Source of the DNA: Sanderia malayensis
Taxonomy: Eukaryota; Cnidaria; Scyphozoa; Semaeostomeae; Pelagiidae
Length of the DNA stretch: 64,000 bases
NCBI GenBank assembly: GCA_013076295.1
Contig: RQOL01000882.1
Coordinates: forward strand, 434,001-498,000
Direction of reading: 5' to 3'
How positions within the stretch are numbered: position 1 is the stretch's first letter; the number at the start of each line of letters is the position of its first letter. The position numbers were made by a program, and so were the translations under genes. Of this stretch, positions 2,318-21,803 are shown one piece after another. The notes under the pieces were generated by a model. It was given only the letters and a program-made list of their open reading frames with translations, was not told where the DNA came from and did not search any database.

Positions 2318-3730
2318 AAAACCACTTGGGCTTTGATATCTTGAGGCTGCGTTATTTTGCTCAGCTTACATCGACCGCCATTTTCTTCTAAACCCCAGTT
2401 TGCAAGCCTTCTTCTTCGATCTTTCTTTAACACGTCTGGTTCGTCACATCTTTAAGACTGAATGAGGACGAAAGGGGGCCAACTCCTCGTACGCAGACCT
2501 TTATTGGATGGACTGGGCACCGGAAATGGGATACTTGACCCATATTTGGCAATGAATTTGTCTATTGGCTAGATGTGACAATGTCTCCATATTGCTCAAT
2601 GAGTTTGCTATTTACCCTGAAAAATACGAAAATCAAAGTCACGGGAAATCGACAACATTATTTAGCAATAAATGCGGTGCTGATAAACTTTGTAATGGTT
2701 TCTTTGCATTGTGATGGCTTCATAAATAACACTGTCGCGGTTTCAACAGTCGCATTCCAAAATCCATTGCAATGCGGAGGATGTGGTTGCAGCCTATGCG
2801 AAGGCAATAGACATATCAGGCCGTGACTGTCAGAAAACAGCTAGACCATATTGTCTAGCAGGGTCACGTGAAATCAGTGGCCAATCAGAAGACGTGTTGT
2901 GCAACACTTGAACTCGAGAAATCAGGGCCCACTTGTTCCGCAAAGTTTGTCTGCTGTGTCCTGAATAAAGCTGTTCATATTGACCAGATAGTCCTCTTCG
3001 CTTTCTGGCCGTCAGCAAGTTTGGTCTGTTATTTTCGGAGAGGAATTTCTACTGGATTCAACGCAAGTTTATTTGAATTAAGCTTGCAAAGTTTCAGCCA
3101 TTTTGTCTAATCCAATACAGGTAAGTCTCGTTAAACGTATTAAAGCAACTTTACAGCTGCCTGGGGGCCCATGTAAGGTTTTGTAATAATAAATACGAAA
3201 TTTTGAAAGCTAAAGTCATTCTTGACACATCATGTGAAATGAAATGCGAACTGGTGTTCTAAATTCGAGCTTGTTTTACATATCGAATTCGACGTGAAAT
3301 TCTAAATTCGAACATTGACTATTTAAGGCAGAAGCATGAAGAAACTTTTGTGTTGTTTAAATGTTGTTATAGTTCTCTCTGCGGCTCGAATTTCAAGAAA
3401 GAGTTGCAAAGTTTGCGCTGTAATGCCATGCCAGTGCAATTTTGCAGCCCGAGACATAGGCGGGGTTTTCCCAGAGTTCAGAGCAGCATCTATCATCTTC
3501 AAATGGGTTGCTTTGAAGTAGAACCGCGTTTAATATTTATGTGAGTTTAGTCGGCATTATTATAGATTTAGTGGAGAGTATTATATTGTATCACCAGACG
3601 ATGTTTAGTAAATAAAATATAATACAATAATAATGCAAAAGAACAGAATATAAACGGTTTATCCTGGATAATAAATATGAATTACAATAAGTGTTGAAAT
3701 GTTTTGAAATGTGATATATCTTGTAAACAG
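2318..3730. promoter_or_regulatory. Intergenic promoter region and 5' non-coding exon of the Xsc gene
   Basis: On the minus strand near 2370-2395 there is AAAATGGCGGTCGA, which resembles the YY1-type ATGGCGG element common near animal transcription starts. On the plus strand AATACAG|GTAAGTC at 3113-3127 is a near-ideal 5' splice site and TTGTAAACAG at 3721-3730 a good acceptor just 8 bases before the Xsc ATG. I infer a 5' untranslated exon ending at 3120 and a 610-base intron. The region would then be a divergent promoter between the small minus-strand gene and Xsc. Open frames in it show no recognisable protein. Confidence 0.4.
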
Positions 3731-3738
3731 GTCAAAAC

Positions 3739-6700
3739 ATGATCAACGCAACAACAAGACGATGGCTCAGCTCGTGTCGCTTTCCAGCTAGCCAACGCGC
3801 GGTGCTTCGATCAACCGCGCGTCATTTTGCAGCAACATCCAGTGTTGCATCAGATTCCGCGCGGGATCCTCACGCGCCGACGAAAATGACCGCGTCGGAA
3901 GCATTCGTAGAAACTCTGGTTGCGCAAGGAGTGACAGATATATTTGGTATCGTTGGGTCAGCTTTCATGGACGCTTTGGATTTATTCCCCGAGGCTGGAA
4001 TCCGGTTTGTCTCCGTCCAACATGAACAAAATGCCGTCCATATGGCCGACGGCTATTCGCGAGCGGGCGGTAAACATGGAGTTTGCACGGCTCAAAATGG
4101 ACCAGGTAAATTTCCTCCACTTTATCTGAATTGGAACAATAACTCCCTTTTGAGCTATAAAATACACGATTGCCTGTACACTGTACAGTAAAATGTTGGA
4201 TGATGTGTATATAAGAATATTTATTCCCAAAACAATAGTTTAAATCCAACCTTGTTCAACCAATTGTGTTTTAACATTAGGTTGGATTTAAAATTTGCTG
4301 CTTCTCAAATAAGGGGCTTCCACTATATACAACACAAAACTTTGTTTATACCATGTAAGCTTTGTTTGGTTTATCAAAGCATTGCTTACCTAAAGCTCTG
4401 TTTACCTAAAGCTTTGTTTACCTAAATTGTTGGGGAGATGAACATGGCCATCCTTTGTTTCAGTCCTTTGTTTCAACGGTTTTGTTTTACCAATCAAAAC
4501 ATTCCCATATCTGCGCAATTGCGCATCTTCCGGTAATGACGTAATGCAAGTTTTAAAATTAGCCAATCAAAACTGCCAACCAAGATTAATCTCAGTTCAC
4601 AAGTGATCACGGAAGTTCCATTTCACTTCCGTGATCGTGCTCGAGTTTGTAGAAGATGAAGAAACACAGCAAACACCATTCCGTGTTATCTGTTTCGTAC
4701 AATCAAATAGCGATACTCTCTGCTCTGAAGGGTTGTTGATTCTCAAAAGAAAAGAAAATTTGATACTCCTCACTGAATTACTTTCATTAGCCTTTTTATA
4801 CACTACATATAATGTACATAGATATTGTTCTGCTCAGGAAATGATATATTTGGAATTGTTTTGTTCAAAGATTGTTGTGTTTTATTTGGTTCAGCTGAAT
4901 TCCAGTTTTGCTTTTACCGTGTAGTCTGGTTTGTGCACAGAATCTGTTTTAAGATAATGTGTGATATATTTGTTCTGCACTAATAATTCCAGTTATATTT
5001 AAACTTCTGTTAGAGTGCTCCTTGATGTTGTTCAGATTTGTTCGTAAGTTACTTAGGCCTGCGCCCCTAGCTTGAGGGCTTAGCTAAAGTTTGTGTCCCA
5101 AGCATCTGTCCAAGCGTGCTTTTGGCAAGTACTCACTTCCCCGGAGATATTCTTAATATTCCAAGAATTGAAAAAATAATTTTCCAGTTGAAAATTTCAG
5201 CGCAAAGATGCCACCAAAAAGTTTGGCTCCATAGCCTAGCTTCAAGGATTTTCTCCATCATTGCGGTGAAATCTGAGTGATTTTCAGAAAGCGTTAGTGC
5301 GGTTGCGCAGATATGGGAATTTCTGAACAACCTGAAAACGGACGATGTTCATCTCCCCAACAATAAAGCTTTGTTTACAATTGTTTCAAACACCAAATTT
5401 GAATGACAAATGTTCTTAGGGAATCTCTTCCGGGAATTCCTTTCGGGGAATTCCCCCGCAGACTGTTTTTCTTGGGTACGAATTGATTCCTTCAACAAAG
5501 CTCCGTCTGACCTTGGCCTGTCATCGATTGATCTCGTGGTGAAAACAAAGCGAGTCCTGGAATTATGATATCGAGTTCGAGATTCATTAAAGTCCAAAAT
5601 ACATGACCAGATTAAAGCCGGTTTGAATTTAAAAAATTCCAGTTATTGGGTTTGGAAATTTAAACTTGAATAACGACGAAAATCTACTTTGTATTTTGCG
5701 ACAGGTATAACAAATTTTGTCACCGGCGTCGCAGCGGCATACTGGGCCCATTCCCCCGTTGTGGCAATTACCCCAGAAGCGGGGACAGCAACAAAAGGTT
5801 TGGGGGGTTTCCAAGAAGCCGACCAGGTTCCCCTGTTTGAAGCCATCACGAAATACCAGGGGCATGTGAACAACCCCATGAGAATGGCAGAAATCACTTC
5901 CCGCGCGTTCGATATCGCCATGAACGAACGCGGTCCGACGCAGTTAAATATACCGCGCGATTATTTCTACAGCGAAGGCGTCTACACGGTGCCAAGGCCG
6001 ATTCGCGTCGAAAAATCCGCTGGTGGTCCAACGGCACTTGCGCAAGCGGCAGAACTCATCCGCACGGCGAAAAATCCTGTTATACTCGCCGGGGGCGGCG
6101 TTGTGATGTCAGAGTCGACGAATGACGTAAAAGAATTGGCGGAGTTTTTATCCGCTCCGGTTTGCACTACGTATTTGCACAACGATTCATTTCCGTCAAG
6201 TCATCCGTTATGGTGTGGCCCCCTGGGATACCTGGGACAGCAAACAGCAATGAAAACCATAAACGAGGCTGATGTCGTCATTGCACTGGGAACGAGGCTG
6301 AGCCCATTCGGAACATTGCCTCAGTATGGATTTGATTACTGGCCGAAAAATGCAAAAATTATCCAGGTACGCATTTATTATTATAAAAGACACTACCCCC
6401 TGAAAATTGCATGTATTGTGTTGTTTCTCATTTGTGGATACGAATGTTTCAGGGTGTTTTGCGTCTGTTTTGCAATATTTATTAATTTACCCCCTGGAAA
6501 TGTAGAATCTGTGCTGATGTCATCAATGAATGCATTCATTATTCCGGGGGTAATGTACCCAATTAATCGTTCTAGGTCGAAGCGGACCCTCGTCGAATTG
6601 GCCTGGTCAGACCTTGTGACGTAGGTATAAACGGCGACTGCAAACTAGCGACAAACGACCTCCTCAGCAGACTGAAGTCAATGTCTGACGTCACAGCACT

Positions 6701-8283
6701 GACAAACAAGGACGCACGTATGGACAAATTGGCCGCTGTGAGGCAGCAATGGGAGGCAAAGCTCAACGAGATGACGGAGGAGAACCCAAATCACAGGGAG
6801 GATAAAATTCTGCCCAGACAAGCGTTGAGGGAGTTGGAGAAAGCGATGCCCAAAAATGCCATGGTGTCTACAGACATTGGAAATGTTTGTTCTGTTTCAA
6901 ATGGATACTTGAGATTCGAAGAGTAAGTTTTGGCTTTGTATCTTTTAATCTGATCTGATGGTAATCTGTATCAATCTATTTCTCGTTCATCTTAAGCAGT
7001 ACAATCCATACTGATCTAATGCTAATCTCTATCAATCTATTTCTCATCCATCTTAAGCCATGCAAATCCATACTGATGTAATGCTAATCTGTATCAATCT
7101 ATTCTCATCCATCTTAAGCAGTACAATCCATACTGATCTAATGCTAATCTCTATCAATCTATTCCTCATCTATCGTATCCACTGCAAATCCATATTGATC
7201 TAATGCTAATCTGCATCAATCTATCTCTCGTCCATGTTATCCAATGCAAATCCATACTGATCTGATGCTAATCTCTATCAATCTATTCCAAGCGTAACAA
7301 TTTTTCTGAATCCAACACATTATTTCCAGGTCTCCAAGCTTTTTTGCTGCGATGACGTTTGGAAACTGCGGCTACTCATTTCCGTCCGCGATGGGGGCGA
7401 AAGTCGCGCAGCCAGACCGTCCAGCAATAGCCTACGTTGGCGATGGGGCCTGGGGCATGAGTTTGAACGAGGTTCTCACTTGCATTCGGGAGAAGATTCC
7501 AACCACTGCGGTTGTATTCCACAATTGCCAATGGGGCGCAGAAAAGAAAAATCAGGTTTTTATGATGAAATTTTTGTGTTTGATATTTGATATTATTTGA
7601 ATTTGATCCGAGAATCACCCCACTTCTCCAGAGTAACAGTAAGTATTTGATGTAAATGGGACGAAATTGGAGAGTTCTGGGGTATTCAAGACTGCGATGG
7701 AGGGATTAAGGGGTATAAAAGACAGTTTGATGGGGTATGCAAGACAGTCATGGGTCTAGAAGATAGTCACGGGGTATAGAAGTCAGTCGTGGGGAATACA
7801 AGACACTCGTAGTGTATACAAGACTTTCTTGTGGGCATAGTGGGCATAGCAGTCAATCATGGGGTATAGAAGTCAGTCATGTCATGGGGAGTAAAAGACA
7901 GTCTTGAGTTATATAAAAGCATCAAGGAGAACACAAGACGGTCACGGTGTAAACGCCTTTCTTTTCATTTCCAGGTCTTGTGGTTCGGCGACCGTTACAT
8001 CGGCGTAAATCTGGAAAATCCTTGGAGTTACGCGGACATCGCACGAAGCATGAAAGCCGAAGGAATCACGTGCACACATCGTGATCAGATTGGTGATGCA
8101 CTGCGACAGGCAGTAGCCAATCAGGAGGAAGGAAAAACAACTGTCCTTGAACTCATGCTGACGCGAGAATTGGGCGATCCGTTCAGACGTGATGCCATGA
8201 AATTACCCATCAGGCATTTGGATAAATACAAGCAAACAATCCAAGTTGCGGAGTCTGGTACGGGACAGCCCGTCGATCTTTAG
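3739..8283 (+). CDS. xsc: Sulfoacetaldehyde acetyltransferase (Xsc), nuclear spliced gene with mitochondrial-type leader
   Basis: Five coding exons (3739-4105, 5705-6366, 6576-6922, 7330-7555, 7975-8283) join in frame (phases 1, 0, 2, 0) to a 636-residue protein. From Met50 on, it reads as the bacterial thiamine-diphosphate enzyme Xsc, which converts sulfoacetaldehyde and phosphate to acetyl phosphate and sulfite: [16 protein letters not shown], catalytic-type Glu96 in [58 protein letters not shown], the cofactor motif GDG at 496-498 with Asn524, [10 protein letters not shown] and [12 protein letters not shown]. Bacterial Xsc has about 590-600 residues. The extra 49 N-terminal residues hold many Arg/Ser and few acids, as in mitochondrial targeting peptides. 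Acetolactate synthase and oxalyl-CoA decarboxylase are relatives, but the signature blocks are Xsc. AATAAA lies near 8386. Confidence 0.88.
4427..5363. mobile_element. Non-autonomous DNA transposon in Xsc intron 1
   Basis: The ends TTGTTGGGGAGATGAACAT (4427) and its inverse complement ending at 5363 are terminal inverted repeats. Both sides carry TAAA as a target duplication (4423-4426, 5364-5367), and removing the element with one copy restores the local CCTAAAGCTTTGTTTAC repeat seen just upstream. Length 937 bp. An internal hairpin (GATCACGGAAGT and its complement) lies near 4604-4636. No transposase is encoded; the open frames inside are short. The superfamily is not clear to me. Confidence 0.75.
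6945..7290 (+). repeat. About 62-bp tandem repeat in Xsc intron 3
   Basis: Five to six imperfect copies of a unit containing GATGCTAATCTCTATCAATC and CATCCATCTTAAGC fill most of the intron between exons 3 and 4. It has no coding capacity and lies wholly within GT-AG boundaries. Confidence 0.8.
7670..7960 (+). repeat. Short degenerate tandem repeat in Xsc intron 4
   Basis: An irregular repeat of about 20-25 bases built on GGGGTATAGAAGTCAGTC fills the last intron of the Xsc gene. Copies are diverged, with GGGGTATA-GA-GTCAGT as the shared core. Confidence 0.6.
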
Positions 8284-18015: not shown

Positions 18016-19196
18016 TATAAATTCCATCCAACAACAACAACAACAGCAGCATTTGCAACGGTTGCTGAGCAACCAGTCGACAAGAGAAATTCGCGCGGGA
18101 GATATTCAAAATATAACGGACGCATTTAAGCTGGTGGTTGAATTGTAAATAATTGCTGAAAATAATTATCGTCTTGTGTCATAGCTTGGACTGGCAAAGC
18201 TTGGGCGTTCTGGCAAAAGGCCGCATCGCTTAGGCCAATGAAACTCGCGTCTGTAGTGGAGAAGGAAAATCAGCGAAAAATTGCAAGAGAAAACAAAGAA
18301 TTTATTGAAATACAGAACAAGTTTTTATGTGAGAAAAAGCTGGAATAAAGTTGAATTCTTGATGAATTTGCCGGTGTATAATGACTTCGAAACAACTTGG
18401 AATTTGATGAGTCTAAAAGTATAAAAGTGAACAATACTTTTCGTGGAATTTGGCAAGAAATCTTGAAGTATCTTCTCCATAAACTCAACGTTTGAAAGTT
18501 GGCGTATTTCTCAGACAAAAATCTCAAATTTAGGAAATTGTTTTTATCTAGTAGATGTTGTGGAATAATTTCTGTATGATATGAAGTATTTGGATCGCTG
18601 CTTATGGATTGGTGAATCAAACACATTGAGCATTTGGATGAAATAAAGTTGAAGTTGGTGTCGGAGAAATTCTGCTCCATTCTTGACTAAACAAAATAAA
18701 AAAATCTATTTCCAAAAGGTAATGTTTTAGGTTTCTTTCATTTAATATCCAAATAATGTTAAAATATTGTTAAAACGCGAAGTGATAAAAGTCTAAAATT
18801 TCACGCATACTGTCTTCCCTGGAAGGTCCATTTAGTCCATTGATAAACAATAGAAACTGATATGTTTCCAGGGAGTAAAGTATCTGACTATATTGTCTCA
18901 TACTGTCACCCCTGGAAGGTCTATTTAGTTCATTGATAAAAAATGCTGAATAATGCATTTCCAGGGGGTAGAGTGCCTTGTTGCCACCCCGGAAAGTTTT
19001 GCATCTTAATGATAATCAACAGAAATCAATTTACTTCTAGGGGGTAAGAGCAGTACAGCAACGGTCGAAAGTAAGGTAACACCTTCTTCATCAAAGTAGA
19101 AAGTCCAAGCCAACAATTAAACGGCGTTACAACGGTAAAAACCGCTCGAACGGCAGATTCTAATCAACGCGTTGCGACACATCTTTATGGGTGCCT
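18016..19196. other. Region upstream of the SERINC gene
   Basis: Holds a short coding-looking plus-strand frame at 18238-18348 (MKLASVVEKENQRKI, Lys/Glu-rich, closed by a stop), perhaps a pseudogene or transposon scrap, and diverged copies of the CCCCTGGAA repeat at 18800-19045. The bases directly before the SERINC start carry no clear TATA box. Confidence 0.4.
18800..19045 (-). repeat. CCCCTGGAA-family dispersed repeat, copies at 18.8-19.0 kb
   Basis: Two to three copies of a unit containing GGAAGGTCCATTTAGTCCAT, TTGATAAACAAT and a TTTCCAGGGGG-TAAAGTGTC junction. The same unit recurs at 22.9, 50.2, 51.7, 54.2 and 60.3-60.7 kb. The ends TTCCAGGGG and CCCCTGGAA are inverted to each other. Confidence 0.75.
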
Positions 19197-21803
19197 ATGG
19201 GAGCAGCACTGAACACCGCTGGCGCGGCTGAAATAGCAGCGGAATTAGCCTGCTGCGCATGCTCATCGGCTTGCGGTTTCCTTTGCAAAGATCAAGCTAC
19301 GCGAGCCAAACTTCGTTACGTCACACTCCTGTTATTCGCCGCGATCACGTGTTTTTTAATGCTCGTACCAGGCATGCGCCGTAGCGTGGATAAAATCCCG
19401 AATTTCTGCGGGAAAACCGTGACGACCGAGACTTGCGACCGATTTTTCGGTTTCGGCGCGGTTTACCGCGTCATGTTGTCAATGACGTGTTTCTACGCAA
19501 CGCTTTCCCTGCTGACGGTTCGCATAAAAAAAGTGAAAAGTTTTCGCGCCAAATTCAACAACGGCTGTTGGATCGTGAAATTACTCCTCCTCATCGGCAT
19601 AACCGTAGCTGCCTTCGCAATTCCCCCGAAATCGGAATTCTTCCGACTATGGATGTATTCTGGCCTAATTGGCGGTTTCATCTTCATGTTGTATCAGATT
19701 ATGTTGATAATCGATTTCGGCCATTCATGGAGTATATCCTGGGCAGAGAGACTGGAAACGAGTAACGCCAAACTGTGGTACCTCGCAATGATATTAGCGA
19801 CATTCCTAATGTTTCTCATATCAATTACCGCTGTCTCCTTTTTCTACTATTTATTCGCCGGCTCATTGGGCCTAACCAAATGCAAGGCGAACATGTTCTA
19901 CATCACATTCGTGGTCATTCAAAGTCTCCTAGCAACGATTATATCCGTTACGCCCACAATCCAACAGGAGCTTGAAGGTGCCGGTCTTCTACAATCATCA
20001 GCGGTTGTTTTATACTCATCGTACCTGACTTGGAACACGCTATCTTCTGAACCAGACCCGGTTTGCAATCCACTCGGTAAGGTCATATTAGACTACGATA
20101 CATTGTCCGGAGTGGATGGTGCGGCACTGTTTGGTTGTTTGCTTACGTTCGCATTGCTTATATTCGCCTGCACTGTTCGCGCAAATACATCACATCTAGG
20201 TAAATACGGCCTAGCGCTTTCGGAAGGTGAGGATTACGCAGTGGCTATGTATATTGACGAGAACCGAAAAACGAAAACGAAAACCGAAGAAGATATTGAA
20301 ATATCGTTGGATGACTATGTCGGGTATAATTATTCGTTGTTTCATGTGATAATGACACTTGCTAGTTTGTATCTGTTGATGATATTGACTAATTGGCATT
20401 CGCCGGAACAGAAGTCGAATATGAAACGGTTGGTTAAAAACTGGGCCTCAGTCTGGGTCCAAATGGCATCAAGTTTCATCTGTGTCTTAATCTATATTTG
20501 GTTCTTGGTGGCACCATTAGTGAAAAAGATGTGGGGACCATTGTTCGGGATCTATTCGGCCCCAAATGGTGGGGGTCAAAGTGACAAAGGTCAGAATGGC
20601 AAAGGTCAGAGTGGCAAAGGTCAGAGTAGCACAAGTCAGAGTAGCAAAGGTCAGAGTAGCAAAGGTCAGAATTCAAAAAATTTGAACGAAAGTTATTTAG
20701 TACCACAACTCCAAGAAGGATGTGGCGATGTAAGAAAACGGGGGATTGAAAACAAGGGACAGATTGACACAATGGGACAAAACGGTCTTGGTCCAAGTGG
20801 AAAACAAAAAAAGAATATTCAGCGATTCCCTTCGGTGGAAAGTTTGAGGTCAGCATTTTCGTCGATTTCGAAAAGAAAACAGAAAACCAGATTGGAACGG
20901 GATAAAATGCGACTAAAAGAAGAGACATCAAAAGAGACATTGTATTCGGAATTCTCGGCGGCCGAGGAACACGAAGAGCGAATTCCGAGAACTATCGGCG
21001 ACCGAGAATCAAACCGAGAACCGAGATTGCAGCGATTCGCTTCATTAGAAAGTTTGAAATCGGGATTTTCGGCGATTTCCAAGGCTACTAGTCAGCTGAT
21101 GAAACGGAAATTGAAAAAGAAATTTCGAAGACGAAAAAGTGACGACGCGTCAAAGTCGGGAATCGAAGAGTCGAACCTGAACGGAAATGACGCCATACGC
21201 GAAGAAACAAAGAATGGCGAAAGTTTTCATTCGGGGACTGTTATTAGTGACGTTGCCACGCGGAATCGAGACCCGTCCAATATGGCTGCAAGTCAAGTCG
21301 GAGATACGGACTTGCAAACTTGTAAAACTCAAGAAAATATCGTAAAAACAAATAGCGAATATGTAAACAATGACAGGGATTGCAGTAAACAGATTAACAA
21401 CGCAAATACAAACAATTATGACGTAAACACCAGGCAGACGGAGCTCGGGTATGAAAGAGAGCGTGGAAATGAAAGGGTCGAATTAGCAAAAGAAATCGTG
21501 GATAGCGAAAGACATTTGCGAGAGAATGACGTATCTATGACACGTTCATCTATAATAAACACGCCTGCGTGTCAACAGAAAGCGCAGCAGCCCGAGGTGG
21601 CCCGCGAGATTTTAAAAATGCAGTGGAAAATATTGCGAATGCAAGCGAAAGTGGTCAAAGTGCAGGAGAAGATTATAAGGCTACAGACAGAGAACGAATA
21701 TGTGAAAACGAATGCGAGAGAAGTCGATTCAATAGCAGCCGGGGGCCTCAATGCGAGAAGAACTGACGTCAGAACAGCGCTGAATAGAAAGGAGCATGGG
21801 TAA
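19197..21803 (+). CDS. SERINC: SERINC-family membrane protein, intronless, with long C-terminal tail
   Basis: A single frame of 868 residues from the ATG at 19197; an in-frame GTG lies six bases upstream and an out-of-frame ATG at 19187 is not used. SERINC proteins are multi-pass membrane proteins, reported to help incorporate serine into membrane lipids and to move lipids between leaflets. The start MGAALNTAG, the Cys-rich CCACSSACGFLC, the NGCWIVKLLLLIG block, YSGLIGGFIFMLYQIMLIIDF, the SxTPTIQ block, SSYLTWNTLSSEPD and the final YIWFLVAPLV are family hallmarks; about ten membrane segments are visible to residue 445. A usual member ends near residue 450. Here about 420 more residues follow: a GQSSK-type pentapeptide repeat (460-495), two copies of a QRF-S-ESL-S-FS-ISK motif (about 541-558 and 611-628), Lys/Arg-rich stretches and a likely coiled coil (about 798-840). 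Lack of introns suggests a retrogene. Confidence 0.88.
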   Translation: MGAALNTAGAAEIAAELACCACSSACGFLCKDQATRAKLRYVTLLLFAAITCFLMLVPGMRRSVDKIPNFCGKTVTTETCDRFFGFGAVYRVMLSMTCFYATLSLLTVRIKKVKSFRAKFNNGCWIVKLLLLIGITVAAFAIPPKSEFFRLWMYSGLIGGFIFMLYQIMLIIDFGHSWSISWAERLETSNAKLWYLAMILATFLMFLISITAVSFFYYLFAGSLGLTKCKANMFYITFVVIQSLLATIISVTPTIQQELEGAGLLQSSAVVLYSSYLTWNTLSSEPDPVCNPLGKVILDYDTLSGVDGAALFGCLLTFALLIFACTVRANTSHLGKYGLALSEGEDYAVAMYIDENRKTKTKTEEDIEISLDDYVGYNYSLFHVIMTLASLYLLMILTNWHSPEQKSNMKRLVKNWASVWVQMASSFICVLIYIWFLVAPLVKKMWGPLFGIYSAPNGGGQSDKGQNGKGQSGKGQSSTSQSSKGQSSKGQNSKNLNESYLVPQLQEGCGDVRKRGIENKGQIDTMGQNGLGPSGKQKKNIQRFPSVESLRSAFSSISKRKQKTRLERDKMRLKEETSKETLYSEFSAAEEHEERIPRTIGDRESNREPRLQRFASLESLKSGFSAISKATSQLMKRKLKKKFRRRKSDDASKSGIEESNLNGNDAIREETKNGESFHSGTVISDVATRNRDPSNMAASQVGDTDLQTCKTQENIVKTNSEYVNNDRDCSKQINNANTNNYDVNTRQTELGYERERGNERVELAKEIVDSERHLRENDVSMTRSSIINTPACQQKAQQPEVAREILKMQWKILRMQAKVVKVQEKIIRLQTENEYVKTNAREVDSIAAGGLNARRTDVRTALNRKEHG
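20565..20680 (+). repeat. In-frame 15-bp repeat encoding GQSSK pentapeptides
   Basis: Seven or so copies of AAAGGTCAGAGTAGC inside the SERINC coding sequence. As 15 is a multiple of three, the array reads as repeated G-Q-S/N-S/G-K. The same DNA motif forms a non-coding array at 33185-33555. Confidence 0.85.

Follow-up and report, generated by a model that had tools for sequence, protein, structure and literature searches.

A spliced gene of the sulfoacetaldehyde acetyltransferase (Xsc) family in the jellyfish Sanderia malayensis and its possible place in a route from taurine to ATP

An intact Xsc gene in a jellyfish nuclear genome

The window analysed here is a stretch of 64,000 nucleotides from the scyphozoan jellyfish Sanderia malayensis (NCBI GenBank assembly GCA_013076295.1, contig RQOL01000882.1, positions 434,001 to 498,000 of the forward strand), and it carries an intact five-exon gene of the sulfoacetaldehyde acetyltransferase (Xsc) family in the nuclear genome of this animal. 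The gene appears to belong to a broad eukaryote-type branch of Xsc and not to be a bacterial gift specific to this jellyfish. With moderate confidence, we propose that eukaryote-type Xsc probably resides in mitochondria, where it would feed a route from taurine through acetyl phosphate to ATP; the genes themselves were observed, and their targeting, substrates and flux are predictions.

A preliminary description of the window had claimed five exons with consistent phases and GT-AG borders that encode a full-length Xsc with a thiamine diphosphate (ThDP) motif, and this was borne out. The joined exons comprise 637 codons including the stop, giving a 636-residue product with no internal stop codon, the four introns have phases 1/0/2/0, and the motif was found. 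The exon joins are predicted from homology and splice consensus. The features of the gene are as follows.

3121-3730 (+): likely 5' untranslated region (UTR) intron; donor CAGGTAAGT (CAG/GTAAGT, consensus 9/9), acceptor AG at 3729-3730
3739-4105 (+): coding exon 1; has the start codon and encodes a basic extension at the N terminus (~49 residues ahead of the core) and the beginning of the ThDP-binding N domain
4106-5704 (+): intron 1, 1599 bases, phase 1, GT-AG
5705-6366 (+): coding exon 2
6367-6575 (+): intron 2, 209 bases, phase 0, GT-AG
6576-6922 (+): coding exon 3
6923-7329 (+): intron 3, 407 bases, phase 2, GT-AG; mostly occupied by a 62-base tandem repeat
7330-7555 (+): coding exon 4; carries the GDG...N ThDP motif and QWGAEKKNQ
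7556-7974 (+): intron 4, 419 bases, phase 0, GT-AG; contains a 20-base tandem repeat at 7710-7824
7975-8283 (+): coding exon 5; eukaryote-type LWFGDRY motif, C-terminal ESxTGQP-type tail and stop codon
8385-8390 (+): possible polyadenylation signal AATAAA

The gene likely has a non-coding first exon that would end at 3120. The match to the splice-donor consensus declines from 9/9 in the UTR intron to 6/9 in intron 4 (GTTTTT). The coding sequence has a GC content of 51.7%, compared with 34-41% in the introns and 37.4% in the whole window. The repeat in intron 3 spans 6950-7287, with 5.5 copies of its 62-base unit.

Identity of the encoded protein

The window protein scored 869.3 bits against the Xsc equivalog profile TIGR03457 (sulphoacet_xsc), 193 bits above its cut-off of 676.4, with positions 1-579 of the 579-position profile covered, and 886 bits against NF005713 (cut-off 620). 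Its best acetolactate synthase model, TIGR00118, gave 358 bits, below the cut-off of 538. Of the 200 alignment columns in which 156 bacterial-type Xsc proteins show conservation of 98% or more, the window protein agreed at 193, and the seven mismatches included D536L. An oxalyl-CoA-decarboxylase-like protein of the same genome agreed at 71 of these 200 columns. The window protein has both the glutamate of HEQ and the GDG...N motif.

The preliminary description had also called for a tree with acetolactate synthase and oxalyl-CoA decarboxylase as outgroups, and with the former type of outgroup the window protein fell with Xsc and not with another ThDP family; Xsc rows and 11 outgroup open reading frames (ORFs) of acetolactate-synthase type were split with support of 100/100 in a 54-row tree. 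Another animal ThDP family was ruled out by the profile scores, the conserved columns, and the presence in the genome of a separate protein of oxalyl-CoA decarboxylase / 2-hydroxyacyl-CoA lyase type (NF006721, 582 bits, cut-off 557). No Xsc was among the best 60 PDB matches listed, the top ones being BbmA, acetolactate synthases and pyruvate oxidases. The gene is assigned to the Xsc family, and sulfoacetaldehyde acetyltransferase activity is predicted from this membership and from the conserved residues.

The jellyfish protein resembles bacterial Xsc over its whole length and passes both curated cut-offs. However, its gene is nuclear and divided into five coding exons, and its product has a basic N-terminal extension, an LWFG motif and an ESxTGQP tail. 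The bacterial Tpa-Xsc-Pta gene cluster is likewise missing, as no such gene was found among the 20 window frames scanned (of the 112 longer reading frames).

A eukaryote-type branch of Xsc

Relatives were sought in a protein search in which the best 120 of 8000 scored matches were listed. A protein of another scyphozoan, Rhopilema esculentum (P0002, 636 aa), aligned over its whole length with 80% identity and is named sulfoacetaldehyde acetyltransferase-like at NCBI, and an Xsc-like protein of the ctenophore Mnemiopsis leidyi (P0028) was 69% identical. Both are database predictions and share the motif and the tail of the window protein. Stereomyxa (Amoebozoa) and Paraphysomonas (taxid 36769, a chrysophyte) were the other named eukaryotes among the matches listed. 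A EukProt model of 1108 residues (P0001), whose identifier style we take to be that of Pleurobrachia, resembles a misjoined ctenophore gene. No named anthozoan, hydrozoan or bilaterian Xsc was among the matches listed, which is not proof of absence. We found no literature discussing the Rhopilema or Mnemiopsis proteins. As the Rhopilema protein already bears this name, the label is not new, but the biology appears to be undescribed.

Two sequence marks distinguish the eukaryote-type proteins. Just past QWGAEKKNQ, the bacterial [VI][DE][FY][YF] is replaced by LWFG, and LWFG[DN]R at this place was found in 89 eukaryote-type proteins and in 0 of 80 bacterial loci. The second mark is a conserved C-terminal ESxTGQPxDL tail, encoded at ~8251-8280 of the window and present in 88 of the 89 eukaryote-type proteins; an ESxTGQP-like tail occurred in none of the 76 other proteins and none of the 80 bacterial loci. 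Unnamed proteins were first sorted as eukaryote-type or bacterial-type by LWFG[DN]R, which carries a risk of circularity, and both the tree and the independent tail concur with the sorting. LWFG[DN]R was also found in all 11 proteins with a eukaryotic source name or database (P0001, P0002, P0028, P0039, P0058, P0061, P0062, P0077, P0079, P0088 and P0136).

Trees of 51 rows (main), 69 rows (rooted with the oxalyl-CoA-decarboxylase-like protein) and 54 rows (rooted with the acetolactate-synthase type) were built from sequences chosen by hand among 165 proteins and 80 loci. In the 51-row tree, 36 eukaryote-type rows were separated from 15 bacterial rows with support of 100/100. The window protein, Rhopilema and environmental rows formed a group of eight (100/99), which grew to 12 rows (95/82) with a further unnamed group and to 17 rows (97/97) with the ctenophores. 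Four environmental proteins (P0019, P0021, P0022 and P0024) made up an Xsc group placed between the cnidarian-type and ctenophore rows. The matches point to the occurrence of eukaryote-type Xsc in animals, an amoebozoan and a chrysophyte.

The consistency of the LWFG replacement, which aligns with the LFYEDRY segment of acetolactate synthase, and the confinement of the tail to eukaryote-type Xsc would also fit a branch that had come to use a different substrate or acceptor and were Xsc in name only. We consider such drift improbable, as the protein retains 193 of the 200 columns conserved in bacterial Xsc and exceeds the equivalog cut-off by a wide margin.

Origin of the gene

The preliminary description had proposed that an ancient horizontal transfer gave this animal its Xsc. 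The trees did not support this proposal, and the protein falls within a branch that it shares with another scyphozoan and with ctenophores, and to which an amoebozoan and a chrysophyte also belong, apart from the sampled bacteria. Direct transfer of a bacterial xsc into the recent ancestry of this jellyfish might be suggested by the fact that Xsc is best known from bacteria (PMC10356861, in part) and by the 59-68% identity of sampled bacterial Xsc to the window protein, the sample being the best 80 of 590 loci, in which Xsc diversity is under-sampled. However, the groupings with Rhopilema and environmental rows and with the ctenophores, the separation from bacteria, and the motif and tail common to eukaryote-type Xsc make such a transfer very unlikely.

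With either outgroup (the oxalyl-CoA-decarboxylase-like protein of the same genome or the 11 bacterial ORFs of acetolactate-synthase type), the root came to lie between rows of eukaryotes whose stems are very long. Constraining 27 eukaryote rows as a clade cost 3.26 log units, and this clade was not rejected by the approximately unbiased (AU) test (p = 0.448). With this bacterial sample, the rooted trees and the AU test single out neither a donor nor a direction. The eukaryote-type tree would fit descent from an early animal followed by numerous losses, or gene transfer from one eukaryote to another.

N-terminal extension and predicted location

The first 30 residues of the window protein contain six basic and no acidic residues, a statement of composition only. 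At least 20 residues precede the core in 71 of 89 eukaryote-type rows (the window protein included), and an extension of that length was present in 6 of 76 bacterial-type rows. When a composition like that of a mitochondrial targeting sequence (MTS) was defined as a net charge of at least +2 with at most one acidic residue in the first 30, 65 of the 71 extended eukaryote-type rows were MTS-like, compared with 15 of 445 random 30-residue segments of the core. In composition these extensions resemble mitochondrial presequences, and Xsc is probably imported into mitochondria.

Enzymes for acetyl phosphate

The genome (184,004,477 bases in 918 contigs) was searched exon by exon, a procedure that genes with short exons can escape. 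According to the preliminary description, the animal would need a way to use acetyl phosphate, and the search that it suggested for phosphotransacetylase or acetate kinase returned no phosphotransacetylase and one gene of the acetate kinase family, which lies on a different large contig. The PF00871 profile gave a single match of 309 bits (contig C569, 6,729,942 bases), in an intronless gene with a single frame of 412 residues from ATG (L088:4345-5583, +). Its protein reached 318 bits against the TIGR00016 subfamily model (cut-off 293.4) and contains the NxGS[ST]S, HLG, R.GS.DP and NEE motifs. The need for an outlet thus has a candidate, which falls short of the equivalog cut-offs.

Among the best 120 relatives listed for this kinase, one EukProt protein was 100% identical, another 76%, one named Acetate kinase (P0168) 59%, nine 51-62%, and the remainder at most 44%. 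The identifier of P0168 is of the Seg type, which we take to be that of Aurelia. In a tree of 48 of these 120, 12 jellyfish-type rows made up one side of a branch with a Shimodaira-Hasegawa-like approximate likelihood ratio test (SH-aLRT) value of 100, and all eight of them that were inspected have N-terminal extensions, the first 30 residues of which include 3-8 basic and 0-1 acidic ones. The jellyfish protein resembles AckA in its TIGR00016 score and shared motifs, and differs in its own branch and basic extensions.

The same exon-by-exon search gave no match for phosphotransacetylase, which was matched in 10 of 14 control genomes, and none for phosphoketolase, matched in 3 of 14. Xsc is therefore the sole maker of acetyl phosphate recognised in this genome. 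Acylphosphatase gave no match either (12 of 14 control genomes match), in a search weakened by introns and short exons.

Sulfite oxidase and the entry of taurine

Sulfite oxidase, which the preliminary description had placed downstream of Xsc, has a counterpart in the genome: the Mo-co_dimer profile gave one match, in an open frame of 610 residues that we take to be sulfite oxidase. For the transamination of taurine that the same description had put upstream, Aminotran_3 gave eight matches at four gene places, presumably ornithine aminotransferase, an ETNPPL/PHYKPL-type enzyme, AGXT2 and GABA-T, all ordinary animal types. That AGXT2 or GABA-T acts on taurine is a guess. Ten TauD-family matches were also present (L101-L108, on contigs C777, C781, C473 and C809), possibly representing another taurine route or carnitine-type enzymes. 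A TauD-type route may compete with Xsc for taurine. Taurine, hypotaurine and acetate have been reported in another scyphozoan, Rhizostoma (PMC7070884, in part).

A possible route from taurine to ATP

In the proposed route, an ordinary mitochondrial omega-aminotransferase, of AGXT2 or GABA-T type, would probably remove the amino group of taurine, an abundant osmolyte, and so yield sulfoacetaldehyde. Judging from family membership and conserved residues, Xsc with ThDP would then convert sulfoacetaldehyde and phosphate to acetyl phosphate and sulfite. The acetate kinase-family enzyme would transfer the phosphate of acetyl phosphate to ADP, yielding acetate and ATP, and sulfite oxidase, whose gene was found, would by its generally accepted role oxidise sulfite to sulfate. 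An acetate kinase in the same genome offers a plausible and testable energy-yielding end of the pathway.

Several points weigh against this route. The kinase lies below all equivalog cut-offs (257 versus 561 bits for the best model among those named acetate kinase, NF005520 and others; 279.5 versus 659 for NF009063), and it could serve another acyl phosphate. Among the matches listed, Xsc and acetate kinase co-occur in this genome alone, no acetate kinase is named from Rhopilema or Mnemiopsis, and no Xsc has the Seg-type name of P0168. The LWFG change, which lies beside the active-site half, may shift the specificity of eukaryote-type Xsc. Sulfite oxidase resides in the intermembrane space and not in the matrix. 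A dedicated taurine aminotransferase of bacterial type was not found among the eight Aminotran_3 matches, to which queries adjoining bacterial xsc matched weakly (25-59%, short pieces).

The separation of the two genes on different contigs, one with introns and the other without, and their species lists without a shared named species other than this one would suit a different arrangement, in which Xsc clears reactive sulfoacetaldehyde or frees sulfite, acetyl phosphate is hydrolysed, and the kinase is unrelated, serving another acyl phosphate or making acetyl phosphate from acetate. We regard this as rather unlikely, since neither phosphotransacetylase nor phosphoketolase was detected to supply the kinase; acylphosphatase was likewise undetected in its weaker search. 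Beyond the taurine-to-ATP route itself, we offer more tentatively that jellyfish mitochondria might gain ATP from taurine by substrate-level phosphorylation, perhaps under low oxygen or starvation, and that Xsc might be an old eukaryotic mitochondrial enzyme that ctenophores and medusozoans have retained and that has not been seen in better-known animals. The acetyl-phosphate to acetate step would then have a use in an animal.

The usual view is that taurine is excreted by animals with its carbon-sulfur bond intact. If the taurine-to-ATP route is correct, abundant gelatinous plankton would also cleave the carbon-sulfur bonds of marine sulfonates, an activity attributed until now to bacteria, and animals would gain an acetyl-phosphate path to ATP by burning an osmolyte for energy.

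In bacteria, Tpa and Xsc convert taurine to sulfite and acetyl phosphate, which is then processed by phosphate acetyltransferase (PMC10356861, in part). According to the same source, the sponge symbiont Ca. Taurinisymbion ianthellae likewise takes taurine through sulfoacetaldehyde to acetyl phosphate and sulfite. However, the symbiont turns acetyl phosphate into acetyl-CoA and oxidises sulfite by AprAB/Sat, whereas the candidates in the jellyfish are its own acetate kinase and sulfite oxidase.

Work from 2025 tied TauD genes and taurine to cnidarian larval settlement (PMC12225738, in part), and the present gene bears on that work. Both concern taurine breakdown in cnidarians; however, TauD is a dioxygenase, and the word sulfoacetaldehyde is absent from the main text of that study. 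A paper on octocoral-associated bacteria mentions sulfoacetaldehyde and cnidaria (PMC9502895, in part). None of the papers listed in our searches treated animal Xsc or jellyfish acetate kinase, and a paper on the latter is not excluded.

Genomic context

The window also contains coding stretches of animal type, namely Serinc (362 bits), Frizzled-type Fz (81), WSC (70) and CBM_14 (35). Together with the introns of the Xsc gene, the at least 498,000 bases spanned by its contig, and the animal relative at 80% identity, they make bacterial contamination or an assembly artefact scarcely credible as an explanation of the gene; contamination was ruled out on the introns, the animal-type neighbours and the large contig. 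A viral carrier was also rejected, as no relative emerged from a scan of viral contigs, in which the pattern matched 19 times. The window gave no matches to Rfam and no tRNA genes. The Serinc domain (residues 28-453) lies in a long intronless frame at 19164-21800 (+), which continues into a long charged C-terminal part with no Pfam match.

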